Shown here piece after piece: positions 41,469 to 54,984 of a stretch of DNA of 64,000 nt; the first letter of the stretch is position 1; every line of letters begins with the position of its first letter. A model generated the notes under the pieces. That model saw only the letters and a list, made by a program, of their open reading frames with translations, was not told the DNA's origin and searched no databases. Position numbers and translations under genes: made by a program. Source of the DNA: Gemmatimonadota bacterium (GTDB lineage: Bacteria; Gemmatimonadota; Gemmatimonadetes; Gemmatimonadales; Gemmatimonadaceae); NCBI GenBank assembly GCA_026387935.1, contig JAPLKU010000019.1, positions 124,001 through 188,000 of the forward strand. The letters run 5' to 3'.

Positions 41469-42620
41469 GTGGAACTCCCAACCCTCACGCACGAAGAGAT
41501 TCTTCGCTACAGCCGGCATCTGATTCTGCCGGACGTCGGCGTGGAAGGCCAGCGCAAGCTCAAGGCCGCGCGCGTGCTGCTCATTGGCGCCGGTGGGCTC
41601 GGCTCGCCACTCGCGTTGTACCTCTCCGCCGCCGGTGTGGGCCACATCGGCCTCGTGGACTTCGACGTTGTCGATGTCACCAACCTGCAGCGTCAGGTGT
41701 TGCACGGCACCAGCGACGTGGGCACACCAAAGATCGCGTCGGCGCGCAAGCGAATCGCGGAAATCAATCCGCACGTCGAGTTGACCACCTACGAGACGCC
41801 GCTGAACTCGACCAACGCGCTCGAGATCTTCAAGGATTACGACATTGTCGTTGACGGCACCGACAACTTCCCCACGCGCTACCTCGTGAACGACGCGTGC
41901 GTGCTGCTCGGTATTCCGAACGTGTACGGCAGCATCTATCGGTTCGAGGGTCAGGCGTCGGTGTTCGCGACACAGGACGGGCCGTGCTATCGCTGCCTCT
42001 ATCCCGAGCCGCCACCGCCGGGACTGGTACCGAGTTGCGCCGAAGGCGGCGTGCTCGGCGTCCTGCCGGGGCTCGTCGGCACGCTGCAGGCGACCGAAAC
42101 GATCAAGCTCATTCTGGGCATCGGCGAATCACTCGCCGGGCGGCTGCTCCTCATCGACGCGCTCGGCGCAAACTTCCGCACCGTGAAAGTGCGCAAGGAC
42201 CCGAACTGTCCCGTGTGCGGCACGCACGAAATCACGACGCTCATTGATTACGAACAATTCTGTGGTTCACCACATGTGGGAGGAGACCCGAAAGTGAGTT
42301 TCAACGTTCCGGAAATCACGCCGACGGACGCCGCCGCGCGACTGGCGAAGGGCGAGATCGACATCGTGGACGTGCGCGAGCCGCACGAACTGCAGATCGC
42401 GAAGTATCCGAAGGTGACGGCCATTCCGCTTGGCCAGCTCGTCGACCGCATCGCCGAATTGCCGCTCGATCGTGATCTCGTGCTCGCGTGTCGGTCTGGC
42501 GTGCGCAGCGCGAAGGCCGTGCAGCAGCTGCAGGCGGCAGGGTTCACCCGCGTGTCGAACCTCGCGGGCGGGATTCTGCGGTGGATCGACGAGGTCGACC
42601 CGTCGCAGCCGAAGTACTGA
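41469..42620 (+). CDS. MoeB/MoeZ-type adenylyltransferase-sulfurtransferase
   Basis: A 383-residue E1-like enzyme that adenylates the carrier C-terminus and loads sulfur on it. The adenylating domain shows LLIGAGGLGSPLALYLSAAG, FDVVDVTNLQRQ and the zinc CxxC pairs CYRCLYP and CPVCGTH; the C-terminal rhodanese domain (about residues 285-380) has the active Cys in VLACRSGVRSAKAVQQL. This is the MoeZ two-domain layout of Mycobacterium and MOCS3. The GTG start lies 3 bases after the carrier gene. Confidence 0.92.
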   Translation: MELPTLTHEEILRYSRHLILPDVGVEGQRKLKAARVLLIGAGGLGSPLALYLSAAGVGHIGLVDFDVVDVTNLQRQVLHGTSDVGTPKIASARKRIAEINPHVELTTYETPLNSTNALEIFKDYDIVVDGTDNFPTRYLVNDACVLLGIPNVYGSIYRFEGQASVFATQDGPCYRCLYPEPPPPGLVPSCAEGGVLGVLPGLVGTLQATETIKLILGIGESLAGRLLLIDALGANFRTVKVRKDPNCPVCGTHEITTLIDYEQFCGSPHVGGDPKVSFNVPEITPTDAAARLAKGEIDIVDVREPHELQIAKYPKVTAIPLGQLVDRIAELPLDRDLVLACRSGVRSAKAVQQLQAAGFTRVSNLAGGILRWIDEVDPSQPKY

Positions 42621-46579: not shown

Positions 46580-48541
46580 ATGCAGGCTGGGTCCACTGCT
46601 CGTCGCTCGAAAAAAGGCGCCAAGGAGTACGTCCGTATCACGCAGCCGATGGTGCGCGAGAACGGTGTCCTGAAGCCCGTGTCGTGGGATGTTGCCCTCG
46701 ACGCGGCTGCTGAGGGATTTCGCCGGAACATCGCGGCCCGCGGTCCGAATTCGACCGGCATTTTCTCCTGCTCGAAGTCCACGAACGAAGTGAACTTCGC
46801 GGCACAGAAACTCGCCCGTGTCGCATTCGGCACGCACAACATCGACAGTTGTAACAGGACGTGACACGCTCCTAGCGTCGTCGGTCTGGCGACGGTTTTC
46901 GGTGCAGGCGGAGGCACGAGTTCGTACGCAGAGGTCGAGGATACGGACGTCATCCTCCTCTGGGGTTCGAACGCGCGCGCCGCTCACCCCATCTGGTTCC
47001 ATCACCTCCTGAAAGGGGTGCACAATGGCGCACGCCTGTATGTGATGGACCCTCGCCGCACCGAAAGCGCCCAGTGGGGCGACGTCTGGATGGGTCTGCA
47101 CGTCGGGAGCGACATTGCGCTCTCGAATACGATGGCGCGCGAGATCATTCACGCGGGCGTCTACAACAAGGAGTTCGTCGCCAACGCCTGCTCCGGCTTT
47201 GAGGAGTACAAGGCGAGCGTCGAGTCGTACACGCTCGAAGTCGGCGAACAACTCACCGGCGTCCCGGCCGACGTCATCCGCGAATGCGCGCACACCTTCG
47301 CCAAGGCGAAGAAAGCGATGATCTGCTGGACGCTCGGCATCACCGAGCACCACGACGCCGCCGACAACGTCCTCGCGCTGATCAACCTCGGCATCCTCAC
47401 CGGGCACGTGGGCAAGTGGGGCTCGGGGCTCAATCCGTTGCGCGGACAGAACAACGTCCAGGGCGGCGGCGACATGGGCGCCATCCCCAACAAGTTTCCT
47501 GGCTTCCAGGATATTCTCGATCCCACTATTCGCGAACGCTTCGAGAAGCACTGGGGCGTGAAGCTCCAACCGAACCTCGGCTGGAACCTCACCGAAATGA
47601 TTCGCGCGATGGACCGTAAGGAACTCACCGCGCTCTATGTGATTGGCGAAAACCCGGCGCAGTCTGACGCCGACGCAAATCATGTGCGGCACTGCCTCGA
47701 AGGACTCGACCACTTGGTCGTGCAGGAGATCTGCATGACGAAGACGGCAGAGATGGCGCATGTACTGCTCCCCGCGAGCGCGAGCTGGTGCGAGAGCGAC
47801 GGCACGGTGACCAACAGCGAGCGCCGCGTGCAGCGCTGCCGCAAGGTGATTGACCCGCCCGAAGGCGCGAAGGACGAGCTCTGGATCATCAACGAAATCG
47901 CCAAGCGGCTCGGCAAGGATCTCAACGCCACGGATCCCGAAACGGTCTGGAATGAATTCCGCACAGTGGCGCCGCACTTTGCCGGCGGCATGAGTTACGC
48001 GCGCCTCGCGGAACATCAGGGACTGCAGTGGCCCTGCCCCGACGAGCACAGTCCCGGCGCGACCTTCCTGCACGATCGGCTCTGGAAGACGGGCGTCGAG
48101 CGCGGCATGGCGGCGCCATTCACCGTCGTGAAGCACGAAGGCCCGGTGGAGAAGCCGGACGTAGATTATCCGTTTACGCTCACCACGGGGCGTCATCTCG
48201 ATGCGTACAACACGGGCGTGCAAACGGCCGCGTACGGTTCGCCGCTCTTCCGTGGTGAAACGCTCGATATTTCGCCCGAGGATGCGGCAAAGATTGGTGT
48301 GATTGACGAAGACACCGTGCGCGTGACGTCGCGCCGCGGCTCGCTGCTCGTGCCAGTGCGCGTGGACCGGTCGCTGCGACCGGGACTGGTGTTCATGACG
48401 CTGCACTACCCCGACGAAGCAATGACAAACGTGCTGACGATTGATGCCTCGGATCCAAAATCGGGCACGGCCGAGTTCAAGGCGTGCGCGGTGAACGTGG
48501 TGCTCGCGACGAGCGCCGTGCGCGTGTACGCGAAGACATAA
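46580..48541 (+). CDS. Selenocysteine formate dehydrogenase, catalytic part of alpha subunit
   Basis: A 653-residue molybdo/tungsto-pterin formate dehydrogenase catalytic domain. An in-frame TGA at 46862-46864 (codon 95) lies in NIDSCNRT-U-HAPSVVGLA, exactly where formate dehydrogenases have Sec or Cys followed by His; the reading frame continues unbroken to 48541. A SECIS hairpin follows (46876-46894). Later motifs are typical: LLWGSNARAAHPIW, YVMDPRRTESAQ, CWTLGITEHHDAADNV, LNPLRGQNNVQGGGDMGA and YVIGENPAQSDAD. The [4Fe-4S] CxxCxxxC domain that should precede residue 1 is absent and is instead at the end of the 50451-51392 product. The four genes to 52208 are nearly contiguous and form one operon. 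Confidence 0.93.
46862..46894 (+). promoter_or_regulatory. Selenocysteine codon with SECIS element
   Basis: UGA at 46862-46864 is followed after 11 nt by CGTCGTC (46876-46882), loop GGTCT (46883-46887) and GGCGACG (46888-46894): seven base pairs, one of them G-U, with a GGUCU apical loop. The E. coli fdhF SECIS has the same 11-nt distance and the same GGUCU loop recognised by SelB. The upper stem sequence differs, so structure rather than sequence is kept. Confidence 0.9.
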
Positions 48542-48547
48542 TCGTCC

Positions 48548-50449
48548 GTGGACATCAAGATTTCCGACGCGACGCCGTCGCCAGATGAACGTGACGCCGT
48601 AGACCGGCGGCTCGGGCCGCCGCGCGCGTCATGGGATGGCGCAGAACTGCGCACTGCGCGCGACATGCATGTTGGGTTCGGCGGAAAGGAGCAACGCGAT
48701 CGCCGTCATCTGCTGCTGCCTGCGCTGCAGGCGCTGCAGGAACGCATCGGCTGGATCAGCGAAGGTGGCTTCAACTATGTCTGCGAGCGCCTGAGCGTTC
48801 CCCCCGCTGAGGCGTGGGGCGTCGCGACGTTCTACATGATGCTCTCGACGCAGCCGCGGCCGCGGCGCGTGCTGCATGTGTGCGACGACATCGCGTGCAA
48901 AGTGAAGGGTGCCAAGGAAGTGTGTCGCGGATTGCGCACGCACCACAGTCCCCCGCTGCCACATGGCGTGGTGGGCGGGCATTCGGAAGAACCGCGCGGC
49001 GCGCACGCCACGCTCAATGAGCATCATGGCGCGTGGACCACATCGCCCTGCCTCGGACTCTGCGATGTGGCACCGGCGGGCCTGCTGATTGAAGCCGGGC
49101 CAGTTGTGGTGGAACGATCTATTGGCGAACTGAGCTCCGAGTATGCGATGGGGCTGCTCGGCGGCGGCGCGGAACCCGATGATGTACTGACGCAGGCCAC
49201 GACCATCGGTGGCATCGGTGCACTCCGCCTGCTGAAGCGTATCGGCAAGGTCGATCCGACTTCCCTCGACGACTACAAGGCATCCGGCGGCTACAAGGCG
49301 CTGGAGAAAGCGTTTCAGCTCGGTCCCGAAGGCGTAATTCGCGAAGTCACTGAGGCCAAGCTGCTCGGGCGCGGCGGCGCGGCATTCCCCACGGGACGAA
49401 AGTGGGAAGCCGTGCGCACGCAGCCCGAGAAGACGCGCTACATCATCTGCAACGCGGACGAGTCGGAGCCGGGCACGTTCAAGGATCGCATTCTCCTCAC
49501 GGGTGATCCCTTCGCGCTCGTCGAGGCGATGACGATTGCCGCCTTCGCCGCCGGCTGTTCGCGCGGCTACTTCTACATTCGCGGCGAATATCCGCTGGCG
49601 GCCAAGCGGGTGCAGCACGCCATCGACATGGCCCGCGCAGCCGGGCTGCTCGGTCCGACCGTGATGGGCACATCGTTCGCCTTCGAGATCGAAGTGCGTC
49701 GCGGCGCCGGCGCGTACATCTGCGGCGAAGAAACGGCGATTTTCGAGAGCATCGAAGGCAAGCGCGGCGAACCGCGCAACAAGCCGCCCTTCCCGGTTCA
49801 GCACGGCCTGTTCAACAAGCCGACGATCATGAACAACGTCGAGACGCTGGCGAATGTGCTGCCGATCATCATTGACGGTGGCGCTGCGGCAGCGCGGATT
49901 GGCACCGAGCAGAGCGCAGGTACGCGACTCTTCTGCCTGAGCGGCCATGTGGCGAAACCCGGCGTCTACGAAGTCCCGATGGGCACCACGCTCGGCGAAC
50001 TCATGACACTCGCCGGCGGCGTGAGTGGCAACGGCACACTCCAGTGCGCACTCCTCGGCGGCGCGGCGGGATCATTCGTTCGCGCCGACGAAATGGGCCT
50101 GATCCTCACGCACGAAGACACGCGCGCAGCCGGCGTCTCACTCGGCTCTGGCGTCGTGGTCGCGTTTGACAGCTCGGTGGACATGAAGGACATCCTGCAC
50201 CGGATCGCGAAGTTCTTCCGCGACGAATCGTGCGGCCAGTGCGTCCCCTGCCGCGTTGGCACGGTGCGCCAGGAAGAGGCCCTGCACCGGATCGCCACGA
50301 AGAAAACCATTGGCGGCGTGAAAGGCGAACTCGCCTTGCTCGAAGAAATTGGCCTCGCAATGAAAGACGGTTCGATCTGTGGACTCGGCCAGACCGCGTA
50401 CGCCGCTGTCGAAAGCGCTATCAAGCGACTGAACTTGTACCCTGTCTGA
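48548..50449 (+). CDS. Fused NuoE-NuoF-type diaphorase subunit of formate dehydrogenase
   Basis: A 633-residue fusion of the gamma (FdsG/NuoE) and beta (FdsB/NuoF) subunits that pass electrons from formate to NAD. The N-terminal part (to about 210) has the [2Fe-2S] thioredoxin-like cysteines HVCDDIAC and SPCLGLCDVAP. The NuoF part has the FMN/NAD site LLGRGGAAFPTGRKWEAV and RGAGAYICGEETAIFESIEG, and the [4Fe-4S] cysteines in ESCGQCVPCRVG plus ICGLGQ. GTG start 6 bases after the catalytic gene. In Fds-type enzymes G and B are usually separate genes. Confidence 0.93.
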   Translation: MDIKISDATPSPDERDAVDRRLGPPRASWDGAELRTARDMHVGFGGKEQRDRRHLLLPALQALQERIGWISEGGFNYVCERLSVPPAEAWGVATFYMMLSTQPRPRRVLHVCDDIACKVKGAKEVCRGLRTHHSPPLPHGVVGGHSEEPRGAHATLNEHHGAWTTSPCLGLCDVAPAGLLIEAGPVVVERSIGELSSEYAMGLLGGGAEPDDVLTQATTIGGIGALRLLKRIGKVDPTSLDDYKASGGYKALEKAFQLGPEGVIREVTEAKLLGRGGAAFPTGRKWEAVRTQPEKTRYIICNADESEPGTFKDRILLTGDPFALVEAMTIAAFAAGCSRGYFYIRGEYPLAAKRVQHAIDMARAAGLLGPTVMGTSFAFEIEVRRGAGAYICGEETAIFESIEGKRGEPRNKPPFPVQHGLFNKPTIMNNVETLANVLPIIIDGGAAAARIGTEQSAGTRLFCLSGHVAKPGVYEVPMGTTLGELMTLAGGVSGNGTLQCALLGGAAGSFVRADEMGLILTHEDTRAAGVSLGSGVVVAFDSSVDMKDILHRIAKFFRDESCGQCVPCRVGTVRQEEALHRIATKKTIGGVKGELALLEEIGLAMKDGSICGLGQTAYAAVESAIKRLNLYPV

Positions 50450-50450
50450 C

Positions 50451-51392
50451 ATGACCTCGCCCCACCTGCAGCTCGTCCAGCTCTCCCGCCCTGCCACCAC
50501 CCCAAAGGTGATGGTCGAGCTGTCTGTTGATGGCCACAGTGTGAAGGTTCCTGAGGGCAGCACCATCCTGAACGCCTGCCAGCAACTCGGCATCGAAGTG
50601 CCGACCCTCTGCTGGCTCGAGACACTGAAGCCCGTGAACGTCTGCCGCGTGTGCGTCGTGGAAGTTGAAGGCGCACGCGTACTCGTGCCGAGTTGCTCGC
50701 GCACGGTGGAACCGGGGATGAAGGTGAAGACGCGAAGCGATCGCGTGAACCTCACGCGCAGGCTCGTGCTCGAAATGCTCGCGTCGTCGGTTGACCTGTC
50801 CACGGCACCGGGCATGGCCGAGATGCTCGCGGAGTATGATGCGAAGCCGGAGCGTTTTGGTCCTGACGCCGAGACGGTGGCGCAGCCGGTGAAGGTGGAC
50901 AACGATTTGTATATCCGCGATTACGCCAAATGCGTGCTCTGCTACAAGTGCGTGGAGGCGTGCGGCGAAGATCATCAGAATACGTTTGCGATTGCCGTGG
51001 CTGGGCGCGGATTCCACGCGCACATCTCGACGGAGTTCGTGGTTGAACTTCCCGAGTCGGCGTGCGTGTACTGCGGCAACTGCATCGCGGTATGCCCTAC
51101 TGGCGCGCTGATGTCCAAGCGCGAATGGGAACTGCGTCAGGCCGGCACCTGGAATGAGTCGAAGCAGACCGCGACGGATACGGTGTGCCCTTTCTGCGGC
51201 GTGGGCTGCACACTCACGCTACATGTGCAGGACGGCGAGATCGTGAAGGCGACCTCTCCGCTCGACAACGACATCACGGTGGGCAATCTCTGCATCAAGG
51301 GCCGCTTCGGTTGGAGGCATGTGCAGAACGGGCACGCCTCGCGTGGACCGAGTGCCGATCCCACAGCGCCGCGCGCTCCGGCGAACCACTAG
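50451..51392 (+). CDS. Fe-S N-terminal part of formate dehydrogenase alpha subunit
   Basis: A 313-residue protein equal to the N-terminal third of a full FdsA/FdhF subunit: a [2Fe-2S] ferredoxin domain (about 18-95, cysteines in CWLETLKPVNVCRVC and VLVPSC), two [4Fe-4S] sites (YAKCVLCYKCVEACGEDHQN and CVYCGNCIAVCP) and then the bis-MGD-enzyme cluster domain with CPFCGVGCTLTLHV and NLCIKGRFGW (the Lys of CIKG passes electrons between cluster and metal in FdhH). It stops shortly after, where a full subunit would continue into PLIRRNG. The continuation is the 46580-48541 gene. Confidence 0.92.
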   Translation: MTSPHLQLVQLSRPATTPKVMVELSVDGHSVKVPEGSTILNACQQLGIEVPTLCWLETLKPVNVCRVCVVEVEGARVLVPSCSRTVEPGMKVKTRSDRVNLTRRLVLEMLASSVDLSTAPGMAEMLAEYDAKPERFGPDAETVAQPVKVDNDLYIRDYAKCVLCYKCVEACGEDHQNTFAIAVAGRGFHAHISTEFVVELPESACVYCGNCIAVCPTGALMSKREWELRQAGTWNESKQTATDTVCPFCGVGCTLTLHVQDGEIVKATSPLDNDITVGNLCIKGRFGWRHVQNGHASRGPSADPTAPRAPANH

Positions 51393-51395
51393 TCC

Positions 51396-52208
51396 GTGAC
51401 CGACCTCGGCCGTCTCCCGCCGGCGCAGTCGCGCGGGTTTGTTCGGATTGACGGCGGCGCTTCGTCGCAGGAATCAGCGCAGGTCGCTGAAGAAATACCC
51501 GTCGCTTTTGTCTATGGCGGCAAGCCGCATGTGGTGATGATGTGCACGCCGGCCGATCTCGACGATCTCGCGGTTGGGTTCACACTGAGTGAAGAGATTG
51601 CCTCGCGCGCGAGTGACATTGCGCGACTCGACGTGGTGCGCCATGCGCGCGGCATTGAAGTGCAGATGGAACTGCCGCCCGAGGCACAGGCACGTGTCGC
51701 CAATCGCACGCGCGCACTCGCGGGCCGCACCGGTTGTGGCCTTTGCGGAATAGATGCGATTGAGAACGCCATTCGCCCACCGCACATCGTGACATCGAAG
51801 GCGACGTTCACCGCAGCCGCGATCACGCGCGCCGGTGATGCGCTCGCAGCGCAGCAGCCCGTGAACAATGAAACGCGCTCGGTACACGCCGCGGCGTGGG
51901 CGACCGCGGACGGCACGCTGCACGTTGTTCGCGAGGATGTCGGCCGGCACAACGCCCTCGACAAAGTGATTGGTTCCCTCGCGCGCTCGAATACCGATCC
52001 ATCGTCCGGCTTTTTTGTGGTGACCAGCCGCGCCAGCTACGAACTCGTGCAGAAGGTAGCCGTCAGCGGCTCTCCACTCCTCGCGGCCGTCTCCCGCCCC
52101 ACCGGCCTGGCGATTCGGTTCGCCGAAGACGCCGGCCTCACGCTGGTCGGCCTTCTGCGCGGCGCAACCGCCAACGTCTACACGCACTCCGCCCGTATCA
52201 CACTGTAG
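51396..52208 (+). CDS. fdhD: Formate dehydrogenase accessory sulfurtransferase
   Basis: A 270-residue FdhD protein, which moves sulfur from IscS to the bis-MGD cofactor so that formate dehydrogenase becomes active. It has the conserved CxxC in TGCGLCGIDAIENAI, the flexible DLAVGFTLSEEIA, and the later TSRASYELVQKVAVSGSPLL. GTG start 3 bases after the previous stop, so it belongs to the formate operon. Confidence 0.95.
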   Translation: MTDLGRLPPAQSRGFVRIDGGASSQESAQVAEEIPVAFVYGGKPHVVMMCTPADLDDLAVGFTLSEEIASRASDIARLDVVRHARGIEVQMELPPEAQARVANRTRALAGRTGCGLCGIDAIENAIRPPHIVTSKATFTAAAITRAGDALAAQQPVNNETRSVHAAAWATADGTLHVVREDVGRHNALDKVIGSLARSNTDPSSGFFVVTSRASYELVQKVAVSGSPLLAAVSRPTGLAIRFAEDAGLTLVGLLRGATANVYTHSARITL

Positions 52209-52246: not shown

Positions 52247-53914
52247 ATGTTGTCAGACATTGCCATCGCGCAGTCCGTCAAACCGCGCCCCATCACCGAT
52301 GTCGCGCGCGAATTGGGCCTCAGCCCCGATGACATCGACCTCTACGGCAAGTTCAAGGCAAAGCTCCCTGACGAGGTGAGCCAGCGGCCGAGCAAGGGCA
52401 AGCTCGTCCTCGTCACCGCCATCAGCCCCACGCCCGCTGGCGAGGGCAAGAGCACGGTGAGTGTTGGCCTCGCCCAGGCACTGCGCAAAATCGGCACGAA
52501 CGCCGTGCTCTGCATTCGCGAGCCATCGCTAGGCCCAGTGTTCGGTGTGAAAGGTGGCGCCGCGGGCGGCGGGTATTCGCAGGTCATTCCGATGGTGGAC
52601 ATCAACCTCCATTTCACGGGCGACTTCCACGCGATTTCGAGTGCGCATTCACTCCTGAGCGCGATGCTCGACAACTCGATTTTCCAGGGCAACCCGCACA
52701 ACATCGGCACGGACCGCGTTACCTGGCCGCGCACCATTGACATGAACGATCGCGCGCTACGCCACGCCACGATTGGCTTGGGCGGCGGCACGAATGGCAT
52801 CGAGCGCAAGGAACGCTGGGTGATTATTCCTGGTTCTGAGGTGATGGCGATCGTCGCACTCGCGTCGAGTCGCGCGGATCTCGAGAAGCGACTCGGCGAC
52901 ATCGTTGTTGGCGCCACCGCCGGCGACGAGCGCCGCCCCGTGCGTGCGCGCGAGCTCAAGGCCACCGGCGCGATGACGATTCTGCTCAGCGATGCCATCC
53001 GTCCCAACCTTGTGCAGACGCTCGAAGGCGGCCCCGCCCTTGTGCACGCAGGCCCGTTCGGGAATATCGCGCATGGCTGCAACTCCATTCTCGCAACGAA
53101 GGCTGGCCTCGCGCTCGGCGACGTTGTTGTCACGGAAGCGGGCTTTGGATCGGACCTCGGCGCAGAGAAGTTCTTCGACATCAAATGCCGCTTTGGTGGG
53201 CTGAACCCGGAGGCCGCCGTGCTCGTGGCTACGGTGCGCTCACTCAAGATGCAGGGCGGCCTCGACAAGAAGCAGCTCACCACCGAGGACTTGGGCGCGC
53301 TCGAAAAAGGACTGCCCCACCTAGAGCATCATATCAGGAATGTGCAGCAGTTCGGCGTGCCGGTGGTCGTCGCGATCAATCGCTTCGCCGCTGATACCGA
53401 CGCTGAACTCAAGATGGTCGAGAATCATGCCGCCAAGCTCGGCGTGCGCGTGGTGCTCTGCGAGGTGCATGCGAAGGGCGGCGCGGGCGGCGAGTCACTT
53501 GCGCGCGAAGTGATGGCCATGCTGAGCGCTGGCGGCTCGCACTACGCTCCGCTCTATGACACGAAGCTCCCGATCAAGGACAAGATCGACACCATCGTCA
53601 GGAAGGTGTACGGTGGCGACGGCGCCGACTATAGCGAAGCCGCCCAGGGGCAGATCGCGTATCTCGAGGCGAACGGCATGGGCGCGACGCCAGTCTGCAT
53701 CGCGAAGAATCAGTATTCACTGACCGACGACGCCACCAAGCTCGGCAAGCCGACCGGTTTCCGCATCGCCATCAAGGAAGTGTACGGCTCGGCGGGCGCG
53801 GGATTCGTGGTCGCAAAGGCGGGCACGATCATGACGATGCCCGGGCTGCCCAAAGTGCCGGCCGCCGAGGGGATGTCGATCGATGCGAAGGGCGAGATTA
53901 TCGGGCTGTCGTAG
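52247..53914 (+). CDS. fhs: Formate-tetrahydrofolate ligase
   Basis: A 555-residue ligase that uses ATP to join formate to tetrahydrofolate, making 10-formyl-THF. The P-loop is in SPTPAGEGKSTVSVGLAQAL; other family segments are EPSLGPVFGVKGGAAGGGYS, the LHFTGDFHAISSAH segment and NPHNIGTDRVTWPR-like sequence. Length equals the family. There is no clear ribosome site. Following fdhD at 38 bases, it links the formate module to folate C1 metabolism. Confidence 0.97.
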   Translation: MLSDIAIAQSVKPRPITDVARELGLSPDDIDLYGKFKAKLPDEVSQRPSKGKLVLVTAISPTPAGEGKSTVSVGLAQALRKIGTNAVLCIREPSLGPVFGVKGGAAGGGYSQVIPMVDINLHFTGDFHAISSAHSLLSAMLDNSIFQGNPHNIGTDRVTWPRTIDMNDRALRHATIGLGGGTNGIERKERWVIIPGSEVMAIVALASSRADLEKRLGDIVVGATAGDERRPVRARELKATGAMTILLSDAIRPNLVQTLEGGPALVHAGPFGNIAHGCNSILATKAGLALGDVVVTEAGFGSDLGAEKFFDIKCRFGGLNPEAAVLVATVRSLKMQGGLDKKQLTTEDLGALEKGLPHLEHHIRNVQQFGVPVVVAINRFAADTDAELKMVENHAAKLGVRVVLCEVHAKGGAGGESLAREVMAMLSAGGSHYAPLYDTKLPIKDKIDTIVRKVYGGDGADYSEAAQGQIAYLEANGMGATPVCIAKNQYSLTDDATKLGKPTGFRIAIKEVYGSAGAGFVVAKAGTIMTMPGLPKVPAAEGMSIDAKGEIIGLS

Positions 53915-54042: not shown

Positions 54043-54984
54043 ATGACAGGCACAGGATCATATCAGCCGTGGATCCCGCCGGTGCGGAGGGAGGAGGCGT
54101 ACGTCGGCTGGATTCGCCGGTACGTCGCGTTCCACGGCACTCGTCACCCGCAACTCCTCGGTGAGCGCGAAATACTCGCATTCATGACGCATCTCGCCGT
54201 GAGTGCCAAGGTCAGTGCCTCGACGCAAAATCAGGCGCTGGCGGCGCTGCTGTTCATGTATCAGCAGGTCTTACGGCAGCCGATCGGTGACCTGTCGCGG
54301 ATGGTGCGCGCCAAGAAACCGGCACGACTGCCGAGCGTTCTCACGCGCGAGGAGACACGCCTGGTGATGGCAGAGATGCGCGGCGTGACGCGACTCGTCG
54401 CGTTGCTTCTCTATGGAGGCGGCCTGCGGTTGATGGAGAGCCTTCGCCTGCGGGTCCACGACGTCGACTTTGAACGACAGGTGCTGACGGTGCGGGGCGG
54501 GAAGGGCGACCGCGACCGCGTGACGGTGTTGCCACGCGCGGCGATTCCCGCGTTACGGGCGCAGTTGTTGAATGTTCAAAGCCGGCACGTGCTCGACCTG
54601 ACAGCCGGTCACGGGTGCGTCGAGCTTCCCGGAGCGCTCGACCGCAAGATTCCATCGGCGCCGCGGGCCTGGGAATGGCAGTGGATATTTCCTGCGTCCA
54701 GGTTGTATGTCGATCGCGCCACCGGTGAGATGCGACGGCATCATCTCCATGAGACAGTAGTACAACGCGCTGTGACTGAAGCCGCGCGCCGGAGCGGTGT
54801 GACTCGGCGTGTGAACTGCCACACGTTTCGGCATTCGTTTGCGACGCACTTACTCGAAGACGGATACGACATTCGAACCATTCAAGAGCTGATGGGCCAC
54901 CGGGATGTCCGCACGACGATGATCTACACCCACGTGCTCAACCGCGGCGGCCGAACCGTGAACAGTCCGGCAGACCATATGTAG
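54043..54984 (+). CDS. intI: Integron integrase
   Basis: A 313-residue tyrosine recombinase. The IntI-specific extra helix region is present ([20 protein letters not shown], then [18 protein letters not shown] and [14 protein letters not shown]), which separates it from XerCD and phage integrases. Catalytic residues: Arg in [14 protein letters not shown], His-Arg in [13 protein letters not shown], His in [10 protein letters not shown] and Tyr in [10 protein letters not shown]. Slightly shorter than class 1 IntI (337). It recombines attC sites as folded single strands with attI. The start at 54043 is the first in-frame ATG. Confidence 0.95.

Follow-up and report, generated by a model that had tools for sequence, protein, structure and literature searches.

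Five genes on the forward strand of the 64,000-nucleotide Gemmatimonadota stretch analysed here (the window) run in the order catalytic chain, NuoE-NuoF fusion, Fe-S chain P2, FdhD and Fhs. The catalytic chain (46580..48541) is encoded by 653 codons read through a single in-frame TGA, carries the pair Sec95-His96 and the conserved motif RGQNNVQGG, and shows only Molybdopterin (PF00384) and Molydop_binding (PF01568) domains in Pfam. The selenocysteine codon, UGA (46862..46864), lies in the context DSCNRT-U-HAPSV (codon 95), and a SECIS-like hairpin with a 7-bp stem and a GGUCU apical loop (46876..46894) begins fourteen bases past the first base of the UGA. The gene between the two halves discussed below (48548..50449) encodes, in addition to what the first-pass annotation described, a NuoE-NuoF fusion with a thioredoxin-like [2Fe-2S] domain, an FMN/NAD domain, SLBB and a [4Fe-4S] site, and so has the FMN/NAD and Fe-S sites of the NuoE- and NuoF-like partners. 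P2 (50451..51392) carries a [2Fe-2S] site (C54/C65/C68/C82), two [4Fe-4S] sites (C161-C171 and C205-C215) and a C-terminal Molybdop_Fe4S4 domain (51171..51329; PF04879, 68.4 bits) with C246, C249, C253, C281 and Lys283 (NLCIKGRFGW). The formate dehydrogenase sulfurtransferase FdhD (51396..52208; PF02634, 244 bits) and, as functional context, the formate-tetrahydrofolate ligase Fhs (52247..53914; PF01268, 805 bits) follow. A phage-type integrase gene (54043-54984) lies immediately 3′ of the ligase, and a few genes upstream of the operon a ThiF/MoeB-like protein with a C-terminal rhodanese domain (41469-42620) possibly has a role in molybdopterin synthase sulfurylation.

The first-pass annotation had read this locus as a split and permuted formate dehydrogenase alpha subunit, and Pfam agrees: the catalytic gene lacks Molybdop_Fe4S4, which forms the C-terminus of P2 (residues 241-293, after Fer2_4 and a two-cluster Fer4 region), P2 is encoded behind the catalytic gene, and the cluster and relay lysine fall on P2 and the selenocysteine on the catalytic chain. 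The frame 5′ of 46580 conceals no Fe4S4 domain, since it is closed by a stop some 24 codons ahead of the ATG. Four PF04879 sites occur in the entire genome, one of them in a NuoG-like open reading frame on contig C11, and among them P2 alone is a short stand-alone chain of the Fds type. A phmmer comparison with solved structures pairs P2 with residues 23-303 of Rhodobacter capsulatus FdsA (6tg9) and the catalytic chain with residues 305-933, two complementary, non-overlapping matches to one chain. The claim that the joined products give a normal FdsA stands as far as this end-to-end match goes; it does not hold for the His-Cys3 [4Fe-4S] site of the FdsA branch, which is absent from the split loci inspected, or for NuoE and NuoF, which are fused, and the layout is closer to that of FDH1. 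TIGR01591 (Fdh-alpha) is by far the top family for the catalytic chain, which covers positions 51-672 of the model, positions 1-50 lying on P2; alone, the catalytic chain scores 658.6 bits, below the cut-off of 666.25 for a single-chain equivalog, because the 50 N-terminal positions are missing. The operon holds the full alpha domain set of the FdsABG/FDH1 type, with Sec/Cys-His and the conserved arginine, and divides over two genes what that type has in a single chain (Fe4S4, Molybdopterin and dinucleotide-binding domains).

In fused relatives, the linker at the site of the cut reads CVKGRFG-xx-FVxHxDRLTxPL. P2 of the split loci ends a median of 13 residues past KGRFG (minimum 4), typically as KGRFGWxxVQN.... 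RLTxPLVR follows the start of the catalytic chain after a few to several tens of residues, so that the cut loses nothing of the fused chain. Residues C246, C249, C253 and C281 and Lys283 of P2 are invariant in 24 sequences, as are the Sec-His pair and the RGQNNVQGG arginine motif, both typical of formate dehydrogenases, in the catalytic chains aligned. Both halves have dN of ~0.10-0.25 against dS of 0.7-1.3, an excess of dS that rules out gene decay. Near residue 140 (alignment A1, columns 141-164), between Fer2 and Fer4, P2 of the window and of its closest relatives is missing ~24 residues that are present in many of the order's other split members. AlphaFold gives a poor model of P2 (pLDDT 56.7); the model of the catalytic chain (pLDDT 70) has its best fold match in FDH1 (7vw6_A, E 1.7e-49).

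The division raises the question of whether the two halves belong to one enzyme. A survey of the phylum covered 395 genomes: 43 had the split catalytic chain and 44 had P2, and both were found together in 42 of the 45 carriers. The three carriers of one half only have it at a contig end: the contigs of G002 and G013 stop within NuoF and NuoE, and in G231 the catalytic gene sits on a contig of 8.9 kb that leaves too little space 3′ of the gene. The pairwise distances of the halves are also correlated (r = 0.85, 86 loci; Mantel 0/999), a result that may stem from linkage and common ancestry and not from contact. Together with the adjacency of the genes, the co-occurrence and the congruent distances strongly suggest that the two chains form one enzyme. 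It is very unlikely that the catalytic chain instead works with another Fe-S partner, P2 and NuoEF being a separate NADH-linked module. In favor of such a separation, two Chloroflexota encode the catalytic gene elsewhere than NuoEF-P2, in one case on a separate small contig and in the other (L221; G400:C135, 1-5000) starting next to what read as selD and selA genes; against it stand the near-perfect co-occurrence and correlated divergence of the halves, the lack in the genome of another stand-alone Molybdop_Fe4S4 chain of Fds type, and the invariant four cysteines and lysine of P2, which would be useful beside a bis-MGD site. The two Chloroflexota do indicate that the parts are truly separate genes that can be unlinked and that their joint expression is not obligatory. 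The gene beside selD and selA would also be compatible with an exchangeable catalytic chain, in which two or more Fe-S partners would reversibly bind the bis-MGD/Sec chain and the active site, complete only in the complex, could be regulated or swapped, a refinement that we regard as unlikely.

We propose that the operon very probably encodes a cytoplasmic, NAD(P)-linked, Mo- or W-dependent formate dehydrogenase in which the alpha subunit was cut once, the operon was rotated, and the bis-MGD pocket is assembled from two chains. The domains, their order, the Sec site, the recurrence of the locus, the single origin of each half and the co-occurrence of the halves are established by the data, and the docking of the chains, the electron path, the substrate and the direction of catalysis are inferred. 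The catalytic chain would hold the bis-MGD and Sec95. Docking of P2 on this chain would add the proximal cluster and relay lysine to the bis-MGD pocket and so complete it. The predicted electron route leads from the Mo-Se site through the Molybdop [4Fe-4S] cluster, the two Fer4 clusters, the [2Fe-2S] cluster and the [4Fe-4S]/FMN of NuoF to NAD+. FdhD would activate the cofactor and Fhs would link formate to tetrahydrofolate; the adjoining genes for these two proteins place the enzyme in formate/C1 metabolism. An alternative substrate could be read from the sub-threshold TIGR01591 score of the catalytic chain, and we consider it quite improbable, since the missing N-terminal positions account for the shortfall, the Sec-His pair and the arginine motif are invariant, and fdhD and fhs adjoin.

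The arrangement recurs in about 100 loci, far beyond chance. A first set of 24 loci from three families of the same order had the identical arrangement as far as the contigs reach. A scan of one genome per species, from which the best 80 matches were taken and in which the true number is larger, found P2 as a stand-alone gene, with a stop after P2, in 80 of 80. The combined set comprises 106 loci, a few of which are one genome reached by two tools; among the matches listed, the complete order of catalytic chain, NuoE, NuoF, Fer2, Fer4 and Molybdop_Fe4S4 is found in 93, with Fhs at the equivalent place in 17 of these 93. Eleven of the remaining 13 have contigs that end before the catalytic gene, and the other two are the Chloroflexota with an unlinked catalytic gene. 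Judged by record titles, from which the phylum was taken, the split loci span at least seven phyla: Gemmatimonadota, Acidobacteriota, Chloroflexota, Planctomycetota, Actinomycetota, Vulcanimicrobiota (Eremiobacterota) and Rokuibacteriota; a single Dormiibacterota contig, on which the catalytic gene is partial, is also among them. Actinobacterial isolates with the split form include Amycolatopsis, Streptomyces, Streptosporangium, Nonomuraea, Lentzea and Kutzneria. In the plasmid collection, all matches were below 60% identity and no close relative of the split form was found. The catalytic gene of two MAGs, from Eremiobacterota (L139) and Actinomycetota (L136), appears as two overlapping open reading frames, probably through a frameshift or a sequencing gap. 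The window does come from a draft assembly (2.8 Mb in 28 contigs), but that assembly or binning broke up and reordered an originally contiguous alpha gene, the outcome that would have undone the first-pass annotation, is effectively refuted by the identical order in independently assembled relatives of three families and in public loci that include cultured Amycolatopsis, Streptomyces, Nonomuraea and Kutzneria, with the stop after P2 throughout the best matches.

The selenocysteine codon is TGA in 64 split loci, namely 44 public loci from seven phyla, including three actinobacterial MAGs, among the matches listed, and 20 further Gemmatimonadota loci; it is TGC or TGT in 22 actinobacterial isolate loci among those matches. 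The stem and loop of the hairpin are retained in 59 of 62 Sec loci versus none of 22 Cys loci, and the stem shows covariation, with 10 cells changed on both sides and 0 of 500 shuffles as high. An Rfam scan of the window gave nothing at the gathering threshold, and the SECIS assignment thus rests on the alignment. The genome also encodes SelA (450 bits), SelB (345 bits) and tRNA-Sec (79.5 bits), so that the in-frame UGA, SECIS hairpin and Sec machinery by which a bacterial selenoprotein is recognized are all present. There is next to no chance that the split is a normal selenoprotein gene seen as two open reading frames with its UGA called a stop: the catalytic frame is indeed interrupted at 46862, but the cut precedes the UGA by about 75 codons, other genes stand between the permuted pieces, and the actinobacterial Cys members, which have no Sec, carry the identical cut. 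A possible advantage of the split is that termination at the UGA wastes a 94-residue peptide and not a truncated chain carrying all clusters. Because the Cys members retain the split, its persistence is not accounted for by this advantage.

In both trees, built from 65 rows for the catalytic part and 61 rows for the Fe-S part, all split loci fall on one side of a single branch with a long stem (SH-aLRT 100), indicating that each half has a single origin and forms one clade apart from the fused enzymes. In the catalytic tree, the fused enzymes closest to the split loci (SH-aLRT 89) are the Sec-containing L059, L192 and L193 of the same class. Fused relatives such as L064, L059, L182, L185, L186 and L189 are ordered NuoE-NuoF-[Fe-S-cat]. 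A single cut, in the linker that joins the proximal [4Fe-4S] domain to the remainder of the bis-MGD protein, would have divided the alpha subunit, and the operon would have been cyclically rotated from an ancestral NuoE-NuoF-[Fe-S|cat] to cat-NuoE-NuoF-[Fe-S]. We speculate that a tandem operon duplication followed by loss of the outer parts may have produced the split and the permutation together. In another family of the same class, L191 (G086:C7, 5136-8523) has Fer2-Fer4 in one open reading frame followed by a Molybdop_Fe4S4-catalytic frame, non-permuted, possibly an independent fission, with a frameshift as the alternative.

This cut was not found described in the open-access literature, in agreement with the initial impression that no such enzyme was known, although such a search cannot prove absence. 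None of the matched solved structures is of the split form, and no purified protein of the split clade was found. Papers on C1 metabolism in Gemmatimonadota and Rokubacteria name formate dehydrogenase in general terms only (PMC5103831, PMC11264602). A separate Molybdop_Fe4S4 protein cluster, with PTH_1711 adjoining PTH_1712, has been reported (PMC12727194); we set it aside as a parallel split because many members also carry a Molybdopterin domain, which makes a UGA-split annotation most likely. We regard the locus as a real and apparently undescribed form of formate dehydrogenase, similar in mode to FDH1 and FdsABG but without their defining single-chain alpha subunit. In the bis-MGD formate dehydrogenases compared, the proximal [4Fe-4S] and pterin-binding domains share one chain, with the relay lysine between cluster and cofactor; a natural and widespread two-chain junction implies that assembly of the pocket in trans is feasible. 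The split form would offer direct access to the proximal cluster, through study of the catalytic chain in the presence and absence of that cluster, of cofactor insertion ahead of docking, and of mutant Fe-S chains supplied in trans, and it provides a natural Sec/Cys pair within one fold that includes cultivable actinobacterial members. The genes are likely labelled as a generic molybdopterin oxidoreductase and a 2Fe-2S protein, and formate dehydrogenase may thus be overlooked in soil and sediment genomes.

Among known systems, FDH1 of Methylorubrum extorquens has a beta subunit that is a fused NuoE-NuoF. The split enzyme resembles FDH1 (FdhAB, PDB 7vw6/8j83) in its Fer2-Fer4-Molybdop_Fe4S4-catalytic domain content and in the top fold match of the catalytic chain, at a catalytic identity of only ~33% in the fold alignment; the FDH1-like fused relative L187 from Methylobacterium shares the NuoE-NuoF fusion and lacks the His-Cys3 cluster. 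The alpha subunit of FDH1, unlike that of the split form, is a single chain with the Fe-S part preceding the catalytic part. FdsABG of R. capsulatus (PDB 6tg9/6tga) shares the NuoE and NuoF partners, and its FdsA is jointly covered over residues 23-933 by the two products, but FdsA is one chain, FdsG and FdsB are separate, and FdsA has the His-Cys3 cluster (compare the fused relatives L064, L182 and L185) that P2 lacks. This cluster is absent as well from L187 and from the Sec-containing fused enzymes L059, L192 and L193. By sequence score, the catalytic chain is closest to the FdhF-type subunit of hydrogen-dependent CO2 reductase (PDB 7qv7; 527.9 bits) and also matches Escherichia coli FdhH (1aa6; 447.5 bits), both of which have Sec or Cys at the same place. 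Enzymes of the FdhF/FdhH type differ in having Molybdop_Fe4S4 in the same chain (L177, L178, L181 and L184) and no Fer2, Fer4 or NuoEF. Formylmethanofuran dehydrogenase FwdB/FwdD is a bis-MGD enzyme with its catalytic unit spread over two chains, the C-terminal dinucleotide-binding domain being separate and the Fe4S4 domain remaining with the catalytic chain. FwdB/FwdD and the proposed split enzyme are both two-chain catalytic units, and in the enzyme described here it is the Fe4S4 domain that is the separate part.
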